From Halobellus sp. MBLA0158 (lineage in GTDB: Archaea > Halobacteriota > Halobacteria > Halobacteriales > Haloferacaceae), in assembly GCF_041477585.1 (NCBI RefSeq), contig NZ_JBGNYA010000001.1, positions 744,001 to 808,000 on the forward strand: a DNA stretch of 64,000 nucleotides, given 5' to 3'. Positions within the stretch are counted from its first letter, which is position 1. The number at the start of each line of letters is the position of its first letter. The translations under genes were made by a program, and so were the position numbers. Shown piece after piece: positions 8,740 to 21,035 of this stretch. Below the pieces are notes generated by a model. That model was given only the letters and a program-made list of their open reading frames with translations, had not been told where the DNA came from and ran no database searches.

Positions 8740-8930
8740 TCAGCGCTCGCCGTCGACGTGGTCTTTGCCGTCCCACTCCGCGGAGTTGTCCTGGGGCTCG
8801 TAGCCCAGCACCTCTCGCGCGCGGTCGATCGAGTAGTACTTTCGATCGTTATCGGAGACACCGCGAGACACGCCTCGCGAGGTCCCGCTCGCAACCTCGC
8901 GGGACTGCCGTAGACGATCTCGGGAGTCGT
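8740..8930 (-). pseudogene. Displaced 3' end of azf (left boundary of integrative element)
   Basis: Positions 8740-8858 match the last 119 nt of azf at 20104-20222 with five mismatches, stop codon included. The encoded residues differ only by two Glu/Asp swaps. After 8858 a 47-nt GC-rich insert (8859-8905) intervenes, and azf homology resumes for 17 nt (TGCCGTAGACGATCTCG, 8906-8922) and a few bases more. There is no start codon or azf N-terminus here. I read it as the original 3' end of azf, left behind when the element recombined in and supplied a replacement 3' end. Confidence 0.85.
8825..8858. repeat. Putative attachment core, left copy (attL)
   Basis: A 34-nt stretch, including GAGTAGTACTTTCGATCG, identical to 20189-20222. 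All five mismatches between the two azf ends lie outside it to the left, and sequence diverges immediately to the right. That is the pattern expected if strand exchange occurred within this core. Confidence 0.75.
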
Positions 8931-8958: not shown

Positions 8959-10002
8959 ATGAGCCGAGAACACAATCCCCCGACGGACGGGGACCGACCG
9001 AGGCGACTCGAACCGACCGAACCGACCGAAGCGAAACAACTGTATCTGCGATCTCGACAGGATGAATTAGCAGAGCGGTCCCTCGAATTGCACGACAAGC
9101 ACCTTACGTCGTTCTCCGAGTGGTGCATCAAGAACGACATCCGAAACCTCAACGACGTGACGGCCCGCACCGTCCACGAATACCATCTGGCGCTCAAAGA
9201 AGAGTACCAGCAGTCGACGGTGAGTATCTACCTGTCGACGGTGCGGCAATTCGTTCGCTTCTGCGAGGGGATCGACGCCGTCCCGAGGGGCGTCGCCGAG
9301 CGGATCGTCCTTCCCGAGCGAGAGCGAAACGCCAGCTCCGAGATGTTGGAATCGGACGAAGCGACCGAGATCCTCGGGTACCTCCGCAAGTACCATTATG
9401 GGAGCCGCAGTCACGCCCTCTTTGCGCTCTTGTGGCACACGGGGATTCGGACGGGCACGGCCCAGGGACTCGACGTGAGTGATTTTGAAGCCGAGCGGGA
9501 CCGCCTACGGATCCGACACCGACCCGACACAGGGTCACCGTTGAAGAACGGTGAGAACGCCGAGCGGTTCGTGACGTTGTCGACGGACGTCTCGGCGGTG
9601 ATCGACGCCTACGTCGATGAACATAGACACGACGTCGTCGACGATCACGGGCGAGAACCGTTGTTCACAACGCACAACGGACGCCCCGCGAAAAACTCGA
9701 TCCGACGGACGATCTACGCAGTCACACGCCCTTGTCAAACGGGGCGAGGTTGTCCGCACGGGGAAGATCCCGATACCTGCGAGGCGGCCCAACGGACGAA
9801 CGACGCCTGCAAGTGTCCGTCGACGGTGTCGGGCCATCCTGTGCGTAGAGGCGCGATCACCCATCATCTCCGTCAAGACGTTCCTGAAAAAGTTGTGAGC
9901 GATCGGATGAACGTCTCCCAGGACGTGTTGGATCGACACTACGATCGACGGAGTGAGGACGAGAAAGCAGAACAGCGACGGCAGTTCTTAGACAAAATCT
10001 AA
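8959..10002 (+). CDS. Tyrosine-family integrase/recombinase
   Basis: A 347-residue site-specific recombinase. Residues about 30-125 form the SAM-like core-binding domain (ARTVHEYHLALKEEYQQSTV). The catalytic half shows HTGIRTGTAQGL with R164, SGHPVRRGAITHH with H293 and R296, and LDRHYDRR with the nucleophilic Tyr near 328. A cysteine-rich insert (C259, C265, C274, C284, C286) lies just before the H-x-x-R box and may bind zinc; similar inserts occur in other haloarchaeal integrases. It sits at the left edge of the element, as usual for integrases acting at a nearby att site. All catalytic residues are intact. Confidence 0.92.
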   Translation: MSREHNPPTDGDRPRRLEPTEPTEAKQLYLRSRQDELAERSLELHDKHLTSFSEWCIKNDIRNLNDVTARTVHEYHLALKEEYQQSTVSIYLSTVRQFVRFCEGIDAVPRGVAERIVLPERERNASSEMLESDEATEILGYLRKYHYGSRSHALFALLWHTGIRTGTAQGLDVSDFEAERDRLRIRHRPDTGSPLKNGENAERFVTLSTDVSAVIDAYVDEHRHDVVDDHGREPLFTTHNGRPAKNSIRRTIYAVTRPCQTGRGCPHGEDPDTCEAAQRTNDACKCPSTVSGHPVRRGAITHHLRQDVPEKVVSDRMNVSQDVLDRHYDRRSEDEKAEQRRQFLDKI

Positions 10003-13857: not shown

Positions 13858-14277
13858 TTATATATTTAATAAATCCTCAATCTCTTGTATCTTATCGTCA
13901 TTCTCAATTGGGTCCCCCTGAGACAATCTATTTGATAGAAAAATTAAATTATCATTTGCGTTTTCAATGGCATCTCTAGAAGGGACCAGTTGTAGTGTAC
14001 TCCATAGCCAATAAAATGGCAAGGATTCGGCTTTGGCCACCAATTCTGAAGCATCCTCACGTAATTCGTATCTTGTATCTTCTCTTTCGGATTGTGAGTG
14101 GTTACCACCAGGATTTGTAATGATATGACGGTATGTAGATATGTCTTTATCAATTTTAGCCTTCATATTTCGCAGTTCGACAAGAGGACTAATCAAAAGA
14201 CGCGTAATTGCAGAGCCAATAACAGTTGCCAATACAAGACCAAGAAATCCCGTTAAAGCATCAAACCCCGAACTCAT
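13858..14277 (-). CDS. Small membrane-anchored protein, AT-rich gene
   Basis: A 139-residue protein with an N-terminal membrane segment (about residues 6-30, ALTGFLGLVLATVIGSAITRLL) and a charged, mostly helical cytoplasmic remainder. Base composition is visibly more AT-rich than surrounding genes, suggesting separate acquisition. No family recognised. Confidence 0.65.
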   Translation of the reverse strand: MSSGFDALTGFLGLVLATVIGSAITRLLISPLVELRNMKAKIDKDISTYRHIITNPGGNHSQSEREDTRYELREDASELVAKAESLPFYWLWSTLQLVPSRDAIENANDNLIFLSNRLSQGDPIENDDKIQEIEDLLNI

Positions 14278-14584
14278 AGAACATTATAGCCTTTGAATGT
14301 CACAAGTTAGTTTTGATAACTATACCCACTGCACTGAGCGGTCCCTGTCTGGTGTAGGAAGCCCCCTATGACATAGTCACCTCCTGATTAGTCTGAGGTG
14401 TATCTCCGTGCGAAGGGTGGAGTGTGCGCGAGGTGTCGGATCCCCTCCCCCTGCTGATATAGCCGTCGGTATCTCTCTCATCGTGATGGTGGGGGATAGG
14501 GGCTGTCTACCCCGAACTTTCTTATAGCACCAACTTCAACACTCAAATAAATTATAAGTATCTCCCACCCGTCTATCGAAGTGG
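14278..14584. other. Intergenic region between divergent element genes
   Basis: No convincing gene. It contains the start region of the 13858-14277 gene on the minus strand and, at its right end, the TATA-like element at 14551-14557 for the plus-strand gene. Short C-runs and an imperfect CACCTCCTGATTAGTCTGAGGTG inverted repeat lie in the middle. Confidence 0.5.
14551..14557 (+). promoter_or_regulatory. TATA-like element
   Basis: ATTATAA centred about 30 nt before the ATG at 14585, consistent with leaderless transcription. Confidence 0.5.
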
Positions 14585-15226
14585 ATGTCACTCGATGACA
14601 CCACGCCGACGACCGACGAAACGCCCGACAAACGCCCCACCGACTGCTATTGCAGCGACCTCGACGACGACCTCCCTGGGGAGCTATGTGAACCGTGCGC
14701 GGAAGCGGACTTCGACCAGTCCCCCGCCGACGACGCGGTCTCCGCGGACCACGAGCGTCCGCGAAGGTGTTACTGCTCCGACCTCGACGACAGGGACCGA
14801 AACCGAGTGTGTCGCTTCTGCTATACGGCTTGCTTCCGCGCCCGCCCGTCCGACGATGTCGACGGCACCGACGACACCCCCGAGATGAAAACCATCGGGA
14901 TCGAGGAACGGCAATTCGTGAGCCTGTCGACGGACGTCTACGTTGGCGATCTATCGCCCCCGCGACGGAACGAACTGCTCTCGAAAGCCCGAAAGATAGA
15001 GCGGGACTTTGCCGACGCCGTCGACATCGATCCACAGGACTATCCCGTCGTCGAGGAACCAGTCCCGAAGCGAAAGCGCGTCTACGTCGAGACGACGGCC
15101 TACGTCGGTGACCGATCCGTCGACGAGAAGCGAGAGATGGTCGAGGAAGCCCGCAAAGCCGAACGCCGCCTACTCGCGGAAGCCCGCAGGATCAAAACCA
15201 TTGACGGAATCGAACCCGTCGCGTAG
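14585..15226 (+). CDS. Duplicated cysteine-knuckle protein of the element
   Basis: A 213-residue protein made of two internal duplications. First, two Cys units: DCYCSDLDDDLPGELCEPC near residues 20-38 and RCYCSDLDDRDRNRVCRFC near 61-79, each C-x-C...C-x-x-C and likely to bind zinc. Second, two helical units: RQFVSLSTDVYVGDLS followed by ARKIER, and RVYVETTAYVGDRSV followed by ARKAER. The family is not one I can name. A related C-x-C...C-x-x-C unit ends the product of 15601-16137 in the same element. Leaderless promoter at 14551-14557. Confidence 0.75.
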   Translation: MSLDDTTPTTDETPDKRPTDCYCSDLDDDLPGELCEPCAEADFDQSPADDAVSADHERPRRCYCSDLDDRDRNRVCRFCYTACFRARPSDDVDGTDDTPEMKTIGIEERQFVSLSTDVYVGDLSPPRRNELLSKARKIERDFADAVDIDPQDYPVVEEPVPKRKRVYVETTAYVGDRSVDEKREMVEEARKAERRLLAEARRIKTIDGIEPVA

Positions 15227-15240
15227 GTGTCAGACGCCGC

Positions 15241-15438
15241 TCACTCCGCTTCTGTCGTCTCCCATCGTAGGCTGTTGCCTATCTTCTCCTTCCGTACCTT
15301 TCCGTTCTCTCGGAGCGTGTGCAATCGCTCGTAGGCGGACTGTCTCGCTACGCCGACGGCGTCGGCTATCTCCGACGTCGTCTGATTGCCCTCACGGATC
15401 GCAGTCAGATACTCGTCATCGGAGTGGTGTTCGGGCAT
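15241..15438 (-). CDS. Winged-helix/HTH transcriptional regulator
   Basis: A 65-residue single-domain regulator. The segment TTSEIADAVGVARQSAYERLHTLRENGKVRKEKIG is a clear helix-turn-helix plus wing of the kind found in MarR/ArsR-like and phage repressor proteins. The small size suggests a dimeric DNA-binder with no ligand domain. It is divergent from the SWIM-type gene, and an inverted repeat at 15474-15493 lies just upstream of its own promoter region, a possible autoregulatory operator. Confidence 0.8.
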   Translation of the reverse strand: MPEHHSDDEYLTAIREGNQTTSEIADAVGVARQSAYERLHTLRENGKVRKEKIGNSLRWETTEAE

Positions 15439-15473
15439 TGGTTGTCGTTGGATTCGGGACTACTTGAATCCTG

Positions 15474-15493
15474 ACTTATGGCAGGAAATAAGT
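15474..15493. promoter_or_regulatory. Candidate operator in the divergent promoter region
   Basis: ACTTAT and ATAAGT arms separated by 8 nt, overlapped by CCTG/CAGG. It lies between the regulator and the SWIM gene, about 36 nt upstream of the regulator start. It is the only clear dyad in that 160-nt gap. Confidence 0.35.
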
Positions 15494-15600
15494 GGCTGGC
15501 GTATAGTGTTGCTACTGTCGAAGTCGCCCGCCGTGCGCAGAAACGCGCCCCCTGCTGGTGACAGGGTGCGCGGGTGGCTTCGTTAGGGAACCCGAAGCCA

Positions 15601-16137
15601 ATGTCGAGTACGCACTCAGGGGCAAATAAGCCCCACGACGACAGGAGCATAGACGACTTAGACAAGAGAGACGTCCGTGCGCTCACCGAGGCGATGTCGG
15701 TGTTGCCCGACTACGGACGGGCGAGAGGCGCCGACGGCCTATTCGTCGTCATCGGTGAGAACAGCAACGACCCCTACTTAGTCGACGTCGTCGGGAAGGC
15801 GTGTGAATGTCCCGACGCCGAGTACCGTGATCCCGACGGCGGGTGCAAGCACATTAAGAGGATCGAATACGCGACGGGACGGACGGCAATTCCCCAGTGG
15901 GTCGACCGTGACGTCGTCGACGACAACCTCGGGTGCGCCGTCGACGCCGAACCTCGCTACGCCGTCGCGGACGGCGGCATCATCGAGGCGGACGACGATG
16001 GGGAGATCATCGACGACGACACCAACGGACGTCCCGAGGACTGCGACTGTGGGCCGTGGAACGCAGACGCAGGGCTCCCGTGCTGGCCGTGCTATAGGGA
16101 CGGCTTCCGTATGCCTGTGGGTGAGATCGACGGGTAG
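15601..16137 (+). CDS. SWIM-type zinc-finger protein
   Basis: A 178-residue acidic protein. The segment LVDVVGKACECPDAEY...GCKHIKR is the C-x-C-x(n)-C-x-H pattern of SWIM zinc fingers, which bind DNA or proteins. A second Cys unit near the end (DCDCGPWNADAGLPCWPC) resembles the knuckles in the 14585-15226 product. The ATG at 15601 is chosen; a GTG at 15574 in frame is possible. Small SWIM proteins of this sort are frequent on haloarchaeal plasmids and viruses. Confidence 0.78.
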   Translation: MSSTHSGANKPHDDRSIDDLDKRDVRALTEAMSVLPDYGRARGADGLFVVIGENSNDPYLVDVVGKACECPDAEYRDPDGGCKHIKRIEYATGRTAIPQWVDRDVVDDNLGCAVDAEPRYAVADGGIIEADDDGEIIDDDTNGRPEDCDCGPWNADAGLPCWPCYRDGFRMPVGEIDG

Positions 16138-16758: not shown

Positions 16759-17091
16759 ATGGCTGAGTCACTATGTCACGTCTGTGGCTCAAAAACCACC
16801 GATGGCGGACTGACCTATCGGTGTGCGTACTGCGGCGAACCTGTCTGTAGCGACCATCGCTTACCTGAGAACCACAACTGCACGGGGAGCCGACTGCCCG
16901 ATGAAGAATCCGCGAAGGGCCGTGAGGCAAAGTCAATGAAACTGAAAAATGAGCAGACGGTCGGGACGACGCCGTCTGATACAGGGCAATCGAGTCCAGA
17001 TGTGGCCCTTGATGGCTCGGTCGTCGGTGCGGAATCCGAGCCAGAACAATCCGAGACGCAATCTTGGTGGCGGCGACTACTCCCGTGGTGA
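16759..17091 (+). CDS. AN1-type zinc-finger protein
   Basis: A 110-residue protein whose first 45 residues carry a CHVCG...[20 protein letters not shown] pattern, the Cys/His arrangement of AN1-type zinc fingers. The rest is a low-complexity Ser/Glu linker ending in SWWRRLLPW, an amphipathic or membrane-touching tail. Haloarchaeal AN1 proteins often join the finger to a membrane protease; here the two could be separate, since an M48-like protease gene lies just downstream on the opposite strand. Confidence 0.8.
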
Positions 17092-17960: not shown

Positions 17961-18236
17961 TCAGTCTTCGTCGACGAGCGTCAGGACGAGGCCGTCTTCC
18001 CGTAGATCCTCCCACCGATCCCGATGGACCTTCGCGAGGTGATTACTGAGTCCGCGTTTTGTCTCGACCTCACGTGCGCATTCGGGACACCGATACCGAT
18101 CCTCACGTTTCGATAACGACTCACCGTGAGCGAGCTTATGATGGATTCGCATCGCCCGCTCGTCGGCAAAGTCGTCTCGACCGCAATTCGGACACCGTGT
18201 TTCGTCGGCGAAGGCGGTGAGTGACTGCTGACTCAT
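17961..18236 (-). CDS. Two-finger C2H2 zinc-finger protein
   Basis: A 91-residue protein with two C2H2 fingers: CPNCGRDDFADERAMRIHHKLAH and CPECAREVETKRGLSNHLAKVH, spacing about C-x2-C-x12-H-x3-5-H. Probably binds DNA. Its ATG overlaps the HNH nuclease stop as ATGA (18233-18236), so the two are translationally coupled. Confidence 0.85.
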   Translation of the reverse strand: MSQQSLTAFADETRCPNCGRDDFADERAMRIHHKLAHGESLSKREDRYRCPECAREVETKRGLSNHLAKVHRDRWEDLREDGLVLTLVDED

Positions 18237-18631
18237 CGGTCACCTCCGTCGGCGACGAGTGGATTCTCCTCGGGATCGCTCACCGACTCGACGACCCGCT
18301 CGAAGTCCGCCTTCGGGACTCGCCAGACCTTCGCCTCGGCATCGAAGCGAGCGGTGGGCAGCTCCGAGAAGAATCGCAAGAAGGCCTTGAACGAGTCGGT
18401 ATCCATATTGCCTGTACTGCTAAACTGGACTGTGGGAGCCGTCCCGTCGCCGTGGACAGCATCGTGACACTGACGGCACAGGAGGGCGAGGTTGGATAGC
18501 CTGTTGGACCCTCCTTGGCCGCGCGGAACGATGTGATGCACGTCGAGCGTCACGTCGGGACCCGAGGCACGACAGTTGACACACTGACCTCGATCCCGCT
18601 CGTGGACGGCTTCCCGCGTATCTGCGTTCAT
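18233..18631 (-). CDS. HNH endonuclease
   Basis: A 132-residue nuclease. CVNC (C17, C20), DVHHIVPRGQGGSNRLSNLALLC with the catalytic H32-H33 pair and the Asn, then CRQCHDAVHG complete the HNH motif and its zinc cage. A C-terminal domain of about 70 residues (FKAFLRFFSELPTARFD) may direct binding. The ATG at 18631 is preceded by a good Shine-Dalgarno-like AAGGAGAT. Such HNH enzymes in phages assist packaging or homing, and in plasmids may act in defence. The target is unknown. Confidence 0.88.
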   Translation of the reverse strand: MNADTREAVHERDRGQCVNCRASGPDVTLDVHHIVPRGQGGSNRLSNLALLCRQCHDAVHGDGTAPTVQFSSTGNMDTDSFKAFLRFFSELPTARFDAEAKVWRVPKADFERVVESVSDPEENPLVADGGDR

Positions 18632-18783
18632 TGCTATCTCCTTGCCGTGGAAGACAGTGATGCCTCTCACTGGTATGGCCACCTGAGGCACCTCAGCGGG
18701 CGGAGAAGCCCACTTCGCCTCCAGCGGTATATCTAATATCGTTCGGATATAGTACAAATCTTTCGTGTCGACATATTGTGAAC

Positions 18784-18790
18784 TTTTATA
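18784..18790 (+). promoter_or_regulatory. TATA-like element
   Basis: TTTTATA centred about 29 nt before the ATG at 18816, within the 184-nt region shared with the divergent HNH gene. Confidence 0.5.
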
Positions 18791-18815
18791 ACTATTTGCT
18801 AATTCCTGTGTCTCA

Positions 18816-19211
18816 ATGGACCTCCAAGGATACGAGGTTGATCTCACGAGAGAACGGGGTCAAGTTACGATCCAACGACGAAGATATGGACGCCGTGGTT
18901 ATCCTTGGGACTATGTCGTCTCTACTTCGCCCGAGTATTTCGCCGAAGAAATCGAATTTGTACGTCAAGAGTGGGAACAAGCACGCAGCTTGGCGATTAT
19001 ACTGAATCGAGACTACGAGTACGTTGCTTATGCTGAGGATGGTATGGTACCTCAGGAGTTAGCAATAGAGGGAAAACCAGCGATTGCCACATATCTATGC
19101 GGTGTCCACGAGAACTCGACGGAAGAAGTGGCCGAGATGATGGATGTACAACGCGATACCGTAGTCAAGTATCTGTCACGGTTTGATCCTCAAAGACGGT
19201 CTGAAGGTTGA
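18816..19211 (+). CDS. Unknown protein with C-terminal HTH-like segment
   Basis: A 131-residue protein. The N-terminal part is beta-like and rich in Arg/Tyr; the middle is helical (FAEEIEFVRQEWEQARSLAI). The end, NSTEEVAEMMDVQRDTVVKYLSRF, reads as a helix-turn-helix of sigma-region-4 type. Possibly a DNA-binding regulator of the element. The leaderless promoter signal is good. No family named. Confidence 0.65.
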   Translation: MDLQGYEVDLTRERGQVTIQRRRYGRRGYPWDYVVSTSPEYFAEEIEFVRQEWEQARSLAIILNRDYEYVAYAEDGMVPQELAIEGKPAIATYLCGVHENSTEEVAEMMDVQRDTVVKYLSRFDPQRRSEG

Positions 19212-20103: not shown

Positions 20104-20892
20104 TCAGCGCTCGCCGTCGACGTGCTCTTTGCCGTCCCACTCGGCGGAGTTGTCCTGCGGGTCGTAGCCCAGCACCTCTCGCGCGCGATCGATCGAGTAG
20201 TACTTTCGATCGTTATCGGAGATGCCGTAGACGATCTCGTAGTCGTAGTCCGCGAGCACACAGCGCTCGAAGAGGTGCGCGCAGTCGCGGTAGGAGAGCC
20301 ACATCGCCTGCCCGCGCTCGTAGTCGATCGGCGGGTGTCCCTCGGTGAGGTTGCCGATCCGGACGTTCACCACCGAGAGGTCGTGGTGGTCGTGGTAGTA
20401 CCGGCCCAGCACCTCGCCCGTGGCCTTGCTCACGCCGTAGAGGTTGCTCGGCCGCGGGAGTTCGGTCCCGTCGAGCCGGTAGTCGTCCTCGGGGCGGTAC
20501 ATCTCCGGCGTTCTCGACTCGGTCTCGTAGGCGCCGACCGCGTGGTTCGAGGAGGCGAAGGCGAACTTCTCGACGCCGGCTTCGACGGCCGCCTCGAACA
20601 TCGTCTGGGTGCCGTCGATGTTGTTCTGGAGGACGCTGTCCCAGGGGGCCTCCGGACGCGGGTCGCCCGCCAGGTGGATCACGGCCTCGCATCCGGCGAT
20701 CGCCTCCCGGACAGCCTCGCGGTCGGTGACGTCCGCGACGTAGACGTCGCCCTCGTCGATCCCCTCGGGCCGCCGCGCGGCCGACAGCGGGGCGCGGTCG
20801 AGCAGCCGCCACTCGAACGAATCGCCGAGGTGTCGGAGGATCGCCTTGCCGACCCGTCCGTTCGCCCCCGTCAGGAGCACCGGTTCGTCCAT
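20104..20892 (-). CDS. azf: NAD-dependent glucose-6-phosphate dehydrogenase (Azf-type SDR)
   Basis: A 262-residue extended short-chain dehydrogenase. It has LTGANGRVGKAI (NAD-binding GxxGxxG at 9-15), HLAGDPRPEAPWDSVLQNN, SSNHAVGAYE and the catalytic Y152-x3-K156 in NLYGVSKATGE. The chain matches Haloferax Azf, which oxidises glucose-6-phosphate with NAD+ in the haloarchaeal oxidative pentose phosphate pathway. The ATG at 20892 is chosen because it places the Rossmann motif at the usual distance. Its last 119 nt are duplicated at 8740-8858; the final 28 or so codons are inferred to come from the element yet keep the protein intact. Confidence 0.88.
   Translation of the reverse strand: MDEPVLLTGANGRVGKAILRHLGDSFEWRLLDRAPLSAARRPEGIDEGDVYVADVTDREAVREAIAGCEAVIHLAGDPRPEAPWDSVLQNNIDGTQTMFEAAVEAGVEKFAFASSNHAVGAYETESRTPEMYRPEDDYRLDGTELPRPSNLYGVSKATGEVLGRYYHDHHDLSVVNVRIGNLTEGHPPIDYERGQAMWLSYRDCAHLFERCVLADYDYEIVYGISDNDRKYYSIDRAREVLGYDPQDNSAEWDGKEHVDGER
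20189..20222. repeat. Putative attachment core, right copy (attR)
   Basis: The 34-nt segment is identical to 8825-8858. It lies inside the azf coding sequence, about 28 codons before the stop. Sequence to its left (20104-20188) would be supplied by the element, and sequence to its right belongs to the original gene. Confidence 0.75.
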
Positions 20893-21035
20893 TCGCTCGC
20901 CTATCCGCACAGGGAGGCCAAGAAACGTCCGATTCGCGCCGGTGACAGCCGTCTAACACCTTCGCGGCGCGCCCGGCACGGTCGTCGCTCGACTCCGACA
21001 GTAACGTCCTTTGCCCCCGCGGCCGAGCGTCGACT

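Follow-up and report, generated by a model that had tools for sequence, protein, structure and literature searches.

The 64,000-nucleotide stretch of the Halobellus sp. MBLA0158 genome analyzed here (contig NZ_JBGNYA010000001.1, positions 744,001 to 808,000; "the window" below, with position 1 as its first letter) contains an integrated element of about 11.4 kb that holds the genes for both a 213-residue orphan protein (P0001) and a 178-residue SWIM protein (P0002). We found that many SWIM and knuckle genes of haloarchaea are preceded by a leader RNA that forms a covarying family and ends at the AUG start codon, and that the cysteine knuckle at the C terminus of P0002 belongs to a protein family of its own. 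The leader RNA is the stronger of the two results. Our overall reading, to which we give somewhat better than even weight, is that the SWIM-knuckle proteins are zinc-stabilized regulators whose translation would be controlled by the leader, with P0001 as an orphan bearing a doubled knuckle and a doubled beta-alpha module.

An inverted repeat lies directly before the start codon of the window's SWIM gene, and many relatives have a different yet equally paired repeat at that place. The initial annotation says nothing of this leader, in which three helices (P1, P2, and P3) meet in a three-way junction and the hairpin that comes next, P4, extends to the AUG. The parts of the window copy, with the gene behind it, are as follows:

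15519..15600, plus strand: leader RNA of the SWIM gene, a divergent copy (matched by model R1 at 15525-15603)
15519..15526, plus strand: strand 1 (CGAAGTCG), which together with P1 forms a 13-bp helix
15575..15582, plus strand: strand 2 (TGGCTTCG), which pairs with strand 1 or strand 3
15593..15600, plus strand: strand 3 (CGAAGCCA), whose last base directly precedes the AUG at 15601
15601..16137, plus strand: P0002, the 178-residue SWIM protein with a C-terminal knuckle

Model R1 was built from 16 leaders; P1 and P4 were set by hand, the automatic consensus having given only P2 and P3, and alignments A7 and A8 were fitted to it. In 32 test leaders (R1 matches outside its training set, most of them found by R1 and all aligned to it, which favors pairing), 91.5% of the cells were paired and 21 of 25 pairs showed two-sided change. 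Two-sided cells numbered 146, versus 52.8 ± 5.4 in shuffles, and none of 500 shuffles reached any of five measures. The signal was lost in controls with slid partners, which reached at most 43 two-sided cells.

Because the 32 leaders were mostly found by R1 and aligned to it, we added a comparison of pairing energies that requires no alignment. The summed pairing energy of the leaders' own P4 strands beat 20000 of 20000 between-locus permutations, both in the 32 leaders and in a set of 22 (what remained of 26 leaders picked by eye from 72 leaders of SWIM or knuckle open reading frames [ORFs] after those at least 80% alike were removed). The 80% filter was ungapped, and some near relatives remain in both sets. 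For a control region, 9618 of 20000 permutations were as good in the 22 leaders.

An ATG stands at the end of R1 in 52 of 52 distinct leaders, a count in which the AUG itself belongs to the model; these leaders come from 55 of 60 R1 matches (the five weakest were omitted) after removal of 3 duplicates. A second model, R2, represents the junction alone, without P4 and the AUG. Of 28 loci in which the match was placed correctly, 25 have, 18 to 31 nt downstream of the R2 match, an ATG that begins a reading frame of 40 codons or more; for places taken at random from these loci, the count was 229 of 4000 (30 of 35 matches were handled, and L215 and L221 were misplaced by contig edges). The exceptions were L197 (ATG at +22, opening 8 codons), L207 (ATG at +17, opening 28 codons), and L219 (none), and L205 in this set was possibly read in the wrong frame. 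The 13 genomes searched with R2 had been preselected for knuckle or leader hits, and some of them trained the model, so that the figure of 12 of 13 is not a frequency.

R1 matched in 92 of 174 genomes of the class at an expect (E) value of ≤0.01, with several copies in some genomes; the count includes the window's genome and some genomes of training leaders, and 25 candidates were scored per genome. No relevant match to Rfam 15 was obtained at the places searched. Within the genome of MBLA0158, three copies stronger than that in the window precede a gene for a SWIM-knuckle protein (58.5 bits), a gene for a 59-residue protein with a CxnC..CxxC pattern (37.9 bits), and a SWIM gene (35.7 bits). 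One strong copy lies at positions 2684899-2684981 of the contig. The window leader is the sole R1 match in the window at an E value of ≤1 and ends exactly at the SWIM ATG. We also observed other hairpin-rich leaders in the 60 nt before the SWIM ATG (e.g., CCCCTCAGGGGTGCGGGG) in a group of genes encoding a second SWIM finger (L023 to L041) and in another SWIM group (L134 to L145); these may represent separate classes of leader. In genome G104, several leader copies that resemble one another (L204, L213, L217, and L222) stand before ORFs whose products begin with MTTNRLARLK, and they may form a repeat family.

Behind the 52 distinct leaders, many of whose loci had been collected by way of SWIM or knuckle proteins, we found 26 SWIM ORFs and 14 ORFs without a SWIM finger that have two or more Cys pairs (5 being knuckle-like), along with 3 that have one pair and 9 that have none. 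The 27 leaders that came from the RNA search (L160 to L192) precede 7 SWIM ORFs, 8 with at least two Cys pairs, 3 with one, and 9 with none. For comparison, among likely genes in the stretches around SWIM genes, ORFs with two Cys pairs and no SWIM finger made up 12 of 282, and SWIM ORFs numbered 13. Products rich in cysteine thus look enriched behind the leaders, in a set that is mixed. Two leaders (L170 and L174) precede ORFs with an RRxFLGAAAA stretch, which we take to resemble a twin-arginine translocation (Tat) signal, and leader-associated ORFs starting MSMKT (L163, L164, and L180) look degraded.

The 5' strand of P4 seems to have two competing partners. In the window, the alternatives are a pairing of 15519-15531 with 15570-15582 over 13 bp and a pairing of 15575-15582 with 15593-15600 over 8 bp. 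By our own reading of single folds of 12 leaders, 9 favor the P4 5' strand paired upstream of P1, which extends P1, and 3 favor P4. The summed pairing of strand 1 plus P1 with the leader's own strand 2 was beaten by 0 of 20000 permutations in the 22 leaders, and strands 1 and 3, which should not pair, gave 2317 of 20000 in the 32 leaders. Competing strands are supported, with the caveats of leader selection given above, and the leader may well act as a switch.

In the mechanism that we propose, the leader, where present, would set the translation of the SWIM-knuckle genes. In one state, extended P1 (the P4 5' strand being paired upstream) would free the AUG region; in the other, P4 would pack a helix against the AUG and lower translation. 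Which state forms would depend on a signal that binds the junction or on the zinc protein; because many of the products bear Cys units, a metal ion or the protein itself is our leading guess for that signal. The SWIM-knuckle proteins would be small, zinc-stabilized regulators that bind nucleic acids or partners and reside partly on mobile elements. What the analysis demonstrates is the knuckle family, the covarying RNA structure, and the place of the AUG; we infer zinc binding, the signal, the direction of switching, and the regulator role. With more reserve, and at somewhat less than even probability, we suggest that the leader could belong to a new class of switch RNA that occurs naturally in archaea. 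Its junction would sense an ion, a metabolite, or the zinc protein itself and toggle the AUG hairpin, thereby controlling haloarchaeal genes, some of them on integrated elements, many of which encode SWIM and zinc-knuckle proteins.

Like translational riboswitches, the leader has a conserved junction, a possible alternative helix, and a start-codon hairpin. A conserved, covarying 5' leader structure, as expected of a riboswitch, is present in the family, the window copy being weak; the leader differs in being haloarchaeal and, at the places searched, matches no Rfam 15 model. In behavior it would be akin to a translational riboswitch or to an autoregulatory leader; to be counted as a riboswitch, it would need a ligand. 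One publication describes the fluoride switch of Thermococcus kodakarensis as the only natural archaeal riboswitch shown experimentally as of 2021 (PMC8241225). Natural switch RNAs are, by the same source, scarcely documented in archaea, and a widespread covarying leader adds a candidate. Ribosomal-protein leaders are likewise cis-acting mRNA leaders; those described in PMC7247131 include a Halobacteria S15 leader, and part of the S15 leaders resembles an rRNA multistem junction. S15 leaders precede rpsO, whereas the leaders described here precede genes for SWIM and other small proteins.

The second result concerns the protein. The coding parts of P0002 that we refer to are as follows:

15802..15852, plus strand: SWIM finger CxC...CxH (C68 to H84; CECP...CKH, CECPDAEYRDPDGGCKH)
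16042..16092, plus strand: C-terminal knuckle, C148-x-C150...C161-x-x-C164 (CxC-x10-CxxC)

Residues 13 to 132 of P0002 match phrog_17897 (E value, 4.9e-40). The Pfam SWIM model PF04434 scores P0002 at 12.2 bits and misses its cut-off of 19.6, which two relatives, L100 and L101, exceed with 22.5 and 43 bits. P0002 shows the CxC...CxH pattern of this finger, and both matches end before the knuckle. A SWIM protein is also listed in a haloarchaeal prophage region in PMC4866403.

Relatives of P0002 were detected in 333 of 391 class genomes (E value, ≤0.001) and in 146 plasmid records, and close relatives retain the tail, typically as RPxDCDCx(n)LPCWPCYRDGF. More generally, the unit spans CxC-x(5-10)-CxxC, typically in the form RPxDCxC...LPCWPCYRxGF. 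A knuckle profile matched 161 of the 391 genomes at an E value of ≤0.1, although this profile was built with the window sequences and leans toward them; a profile built without them matched 23 of 246 genomes of the phylum at an E value of ≤0.01, of which 18 (MBLA0158 included) belong to the same order. Short, partial knuckle hits in 5 phylum genomes outside the order and the Halobacteria (E values of 0.0026 to 0.008) were judged to be chance. Among the named carriers (21 loci) are Halolamina, Halorientalis, Halovenus, Halalkalicoccus, Haloglomus, and Halostella.

In 159 fetched loci, 69 distinct ORFs match the knuckle and 60 have the complete four-Cys motif, which lies no more than 23 residues from the end of the ORF in 60 of 60. 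A SWIM finger precedes it in 41 of these ORFs, 17 are short, and 2 are long ORFs of other kinds. The initial annotation had called the unit element-specific, a description that does not hold, given that the tail closes many SWIM proteins and short ORFs across haloarchaea and that a family model built without the window sequences scores the P0002 tail at 53.3 bits (E value, 8.5e-16). Its observation that P0002 ends in a knuckle similar to those of P0001 was borne out. Stretches of the form CxC-x8-14-CxxC are rare: six frames of 780,348 bases, mostly loci fetched for the knuckle motif or its SWIM carrier, contain 48 distinct ones, and 42 score at least 32 bits with the family model. Conservation of the knuckle in alignment A3 is biased, since the loci behind it were found by way of the knuckle. 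When the 30 top-ranking P0002-like loci (that of the window among them) are compared for what occupies the tail slot, 13 have the knuckle and another 13 have a second SWIM finger; the latter 13 proteins appear to be close relatives by sequence. Two more have CxnC..CxxC with longer spacing, and the last 2 differ from all of these, one of them (L030) by a Cys variant spaced more widely still.

No Pfam, PHROGs, or NCBIfam model matched the knuckle in the proteins scanned, and the knuckle profile matched no PDB sequence. The proposal of a domain family outside the known catalogs is thus sustained for the catalogs searched, where an established zinc-finger family covering both P0001 and P0002 was also sought and not found. 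Viral contigs yielded 8 knuckle stretches, 0 of them confirmed, and 6 phage records with a P0002 relative align only with residues 26 to 122, short of the tail. A fold search with P0002 returned nothing at an E value of ≤0.001. The strings CWPCYR and LPCWPC were not found in the literature searched, and we recognized no description of the tail or the leader in open-licence literature, judged by titles and the starts of abstracts among the matches listed. The knuckle tail can be regarded as a class-wide haloarchaeal unit, a coherent module absent from the catalogs searched. We postulate that the second, uncatalogued Cys4 unit in the P0002 tail would bind one zinc and aid the binding of nucleic acids or partners.

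Zinc was bound by 9 of 14 tested C(P)XCG zinc-finger micro-proteins of Haloferax volcanii, and AlphaFold2 could not tell which, according to PMC11241148. These are likewise short haloarchaeal proteins with four clustered cysteines. They have two C(P)XCG motifs, whereas the unit described here reads CYC..CEPC, CYC..CRFC, or CDC..CWPC; in most of the ORFs that carry it (41 of 60), it closes a SWIM protein. The retroviral-type zinc knuckle has the spacing CX2CX4HX4C; the spacing here is CxC..CxxC, without the His. The knuckle is a small Cys4 unit missing from the protein catalogs searched, and the leader offers a way into the study of haloarchaeal SWIM proteins, to which our searches assigned no role.

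P0001 is the more singular of the two proteins, and its gene is organized as follows:

14585..15226, plus strand: P0001, a 213-residue orphan with two knuckles in its N half and two YVGD beta-alpha modules in its C half
14645..14698, plus strand: knuckle 1, C21-x-C23...C35-x-x-C38
14768..14821, plus strand: knuckle 2, C62-x-C64...C76-x-x-C79, a duplicate of knuckle 1
14906..15010, plus strand: YVGD module 1, residues 108 to 142, predicted strand then helix
15068..15172, plus strand: YVGD module 2, residues 162 to 196, predicted strand then helix

Both knuckles read CxC-x11-CxxC, and each YVGD module has 35 residues. The initial annotation described the knuckles and the modules as each duplicated, and both duplications beat all of 2000 shuffles: knuckles 1 and 2 align with a score of 91 (best shuffle, 53), and the two modules align with a score of 69 (best shuffle, 48). 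Identical residues use different codons at 7 of 15 positions in the knuckles and 11 of 14 in the modules. Residues 111 to 207 are predicted, with moderate confidence, to form strand-helix-strand-helix. The YVGD half is less acidic (22 Lys plus Arg and 24 Asp plus Glu, versus 11 and 29 in the N half), which, for a haloarchaeal protein, could fit nucleic acid binding. A TATA-like TTATAA at 14552-14557, about 30 nt upstream of the ATG, would fit a leaderless P0001 transcript, given the spacing that we take to be usual.

Searches of the 391 genomes of the class, of viral contigs, phages, and plasmids, and of named genomes found no full-length relative of P0001. In the class genomes, 10 others had E values of 0.001 to 0.008, and 1 of these (L007) holds the knuckle by pattern; in the named genomes, 0 of 56 stretches were confirmed. 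The YVGD profile matched 28 of the 391 genomes at an E value of ≤0.05, that of the window included, with only the window's own below 0.003; those inspected were partial and judged to be chance. Of 126 pattern stretches for YVGD in viral contigs, 0 were confirmed. Searching with the two modules separately, as had been proposed, thus gave class-wide matches for the knuckle and no relative for the YVGD module. A fold search with P0001, for which the query model was of low confidence, returned nothing at an E value of ≤0.001; weak resemblances to 3cxj, 3ueb, and MscS were not used.

Several observations weigh against our overall reading, in addition to the way in which the 22 and 32 leaders were chosen. 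The window leader scores only 14.1 bits with R1 (E value of 0.34 for 64 kb), is not among the four genome-wide R1 matches at an E value of ≤1, has no R2 match, and folds modestly better than shuffles (z of -1.69, with 10 of 200 as good). R1 also found no match in two plasmid loci and one virus locus with SWIM genes (L097 to L099). Locus by locus, the swap tests are less decisive than the sums: the leader's own partner is unmatched by any swapped one in only 2 of the 22 leaders when P4 is tested and in 9 when strand 1 plus P1 is tested. When P1 is omitted, strand 1 alone pairs with strand 2 such that 94 of 20000 permutations are as good in the 32 leaders, a significant but not extreme result. 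The leader set is not purely one of zinc proteins, because 12 of the 27 ORFs from the RNA search have one Cys pair or none. On the protein side, the family model built without window sequences does not recognize knuckle 2 of P0001 (-4.2 bits), and both structure models lack confidence over the knuckles.

For the leader, two other explanations were considered. Its palindromes might be DNA operators for a divergent winged-helix regulator or for the SWIM protein, with no RNA structure involved. A gene for a 65-residue winged-helix regulator does adjoin the SWIM gene divergently (15241..15438, minus strand; Pfam TrmB, E value of 8.1e-07), and a similar arrangement occurs in 5 of the 36 locus records compared, some of which are the same place twice; no P0001 counterpart was seen adjoining the winged-helix gene in the 5 loci read. 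Operators would keep their sequence, however, whereas the stems vary between loci and keep their pairing. In addition, one strand seems to have two rival partners, the hairpin stops at the AUG, and most locus records lack such a regulator at the cut-off used; we consider operators improbable. Alternatively, the leader may be an autoregulatory site: by binding to the junction, the SWIM or knuckle protein would repress translation of its own mRNA. The idea is in line with the ORFs behind the 52 leaders, of which 26 encode SWIM fingers and 14 more have two or more Cys pairs (knuckle-like in 5), and with the low share of such non-SWIM ORFs (12 of 282) in the comparison. ORFs with one Cys pair or none follow 12 of the 52 leaders, as well as 12 of the 27 from the RNA search, some being perhaps degraded genes; on balance, autoregulation seems doubtful, if plausible.

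The relationship between the knuckles of P0001 and the SWIM tail has to be weighed in the same way. They might be independent, Cys4 units that arose separately and have only cysteine spacing in common. With the window-free model, knuckle 1 reaches 13.2 bits (domain E value, 0.003; whole-ORF E value, 2.7), and knuckle 2 scores no better than Cys-preserving shuffles (1171 of 2000 as good). On the other side, knuckle 1 retains RPxDCxC..DLP..CxPC..F, only 1 of 2000 Cys-preserving shuffles scores as high, a profile of both knuckles compares with the tail family at a profile-profile probability of 94.6%, and knuckle 1 lies about 1.4 kb from a true family member. We hold a separate origin to be rather unlikely, and knuckle 1 is a probable distant member of the SWIM-tail family; membership of knuckle 2 is drawn from its likeness to knuckle 1. 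The claim of a Cys unit shared by both proteins thus stands strongly for the P0002 tail and moderately for knuckle 1, and for knuckle 2 only by way of knuckle 1. It might also be supposed that the knuckle is a shortened SWIM finger, CxC..CxxC derived from CxC..CxH, as both begin with CxC and a second SWIM finger occupies the tail slot in 13 of 30 proteins. Profile comparison with the SWIM core gave a probability of 1.2% for the knuckle, with 7 columns aligned, and 4.0% for the P0001 knuckles, and we find this derivation improbable. P0002 is a typical member of the tail family and P0001 an orphan with marginal knuckle membership and an unmatched YVGD half; the knuckles of P0001 sit in its N half, unlike the C-terminal position in 60 of 60 complete-motif ORFs. 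Under the overall reading favored here, P0001 would have arisen by duplication of a diverged knuckle and its fusion to a beta-alpha module that is likewise duplicated, and it is probably a small zinc-stabilized binding protein.

The element that holds both genes is bounded by 124-nt direct repeats (8740-8863 and 20104-20227; 94% identical). The repeat duplicates the 3' end of a gene at 20104-20910, the product of which matches the NAD-dependent epimerase family. A tyrosine integrase is encoded inside the element:

8959-10002: tyrosine integrase (Pfam and PHROGs)

The guanine-plus-cytosine (GC) contents at the three codon positions are alike in the genes for P0001 (0.67/0.45/0.77), the SWIM protein (0.65/0.46/0.80), and the integrase (0.64/0.44/0.72). 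A gene at 13858-14277 with low third-position GC (0.29), which matches phrog_7512, a family of unassigned function, contrasts with the GC-rich SWIM and P0001 genes. A search of 10 proteins against a defense library had as its sole match the HNH gene at 18233-18847, on its HNH part. The element is rich in proteins of zinc type, with an AN1 finger (16759-17091), a C2H2 finger (17961-18236), and this HNH nuclease, all by Pfam. A 25-nt near repeat (22 of 25 identical; 9568-9592 and 14915-14939) lies in frame in the integrase (FVTLSTDV) and in P0001 (FVSLSTDV); shuffles led us to expect none of this pattern, for a repeat that was chosen after the fact. In Halovenus aranensis, a gene resembling the window's epimerase gene is also found near a SWIM gene (L116 and L131).

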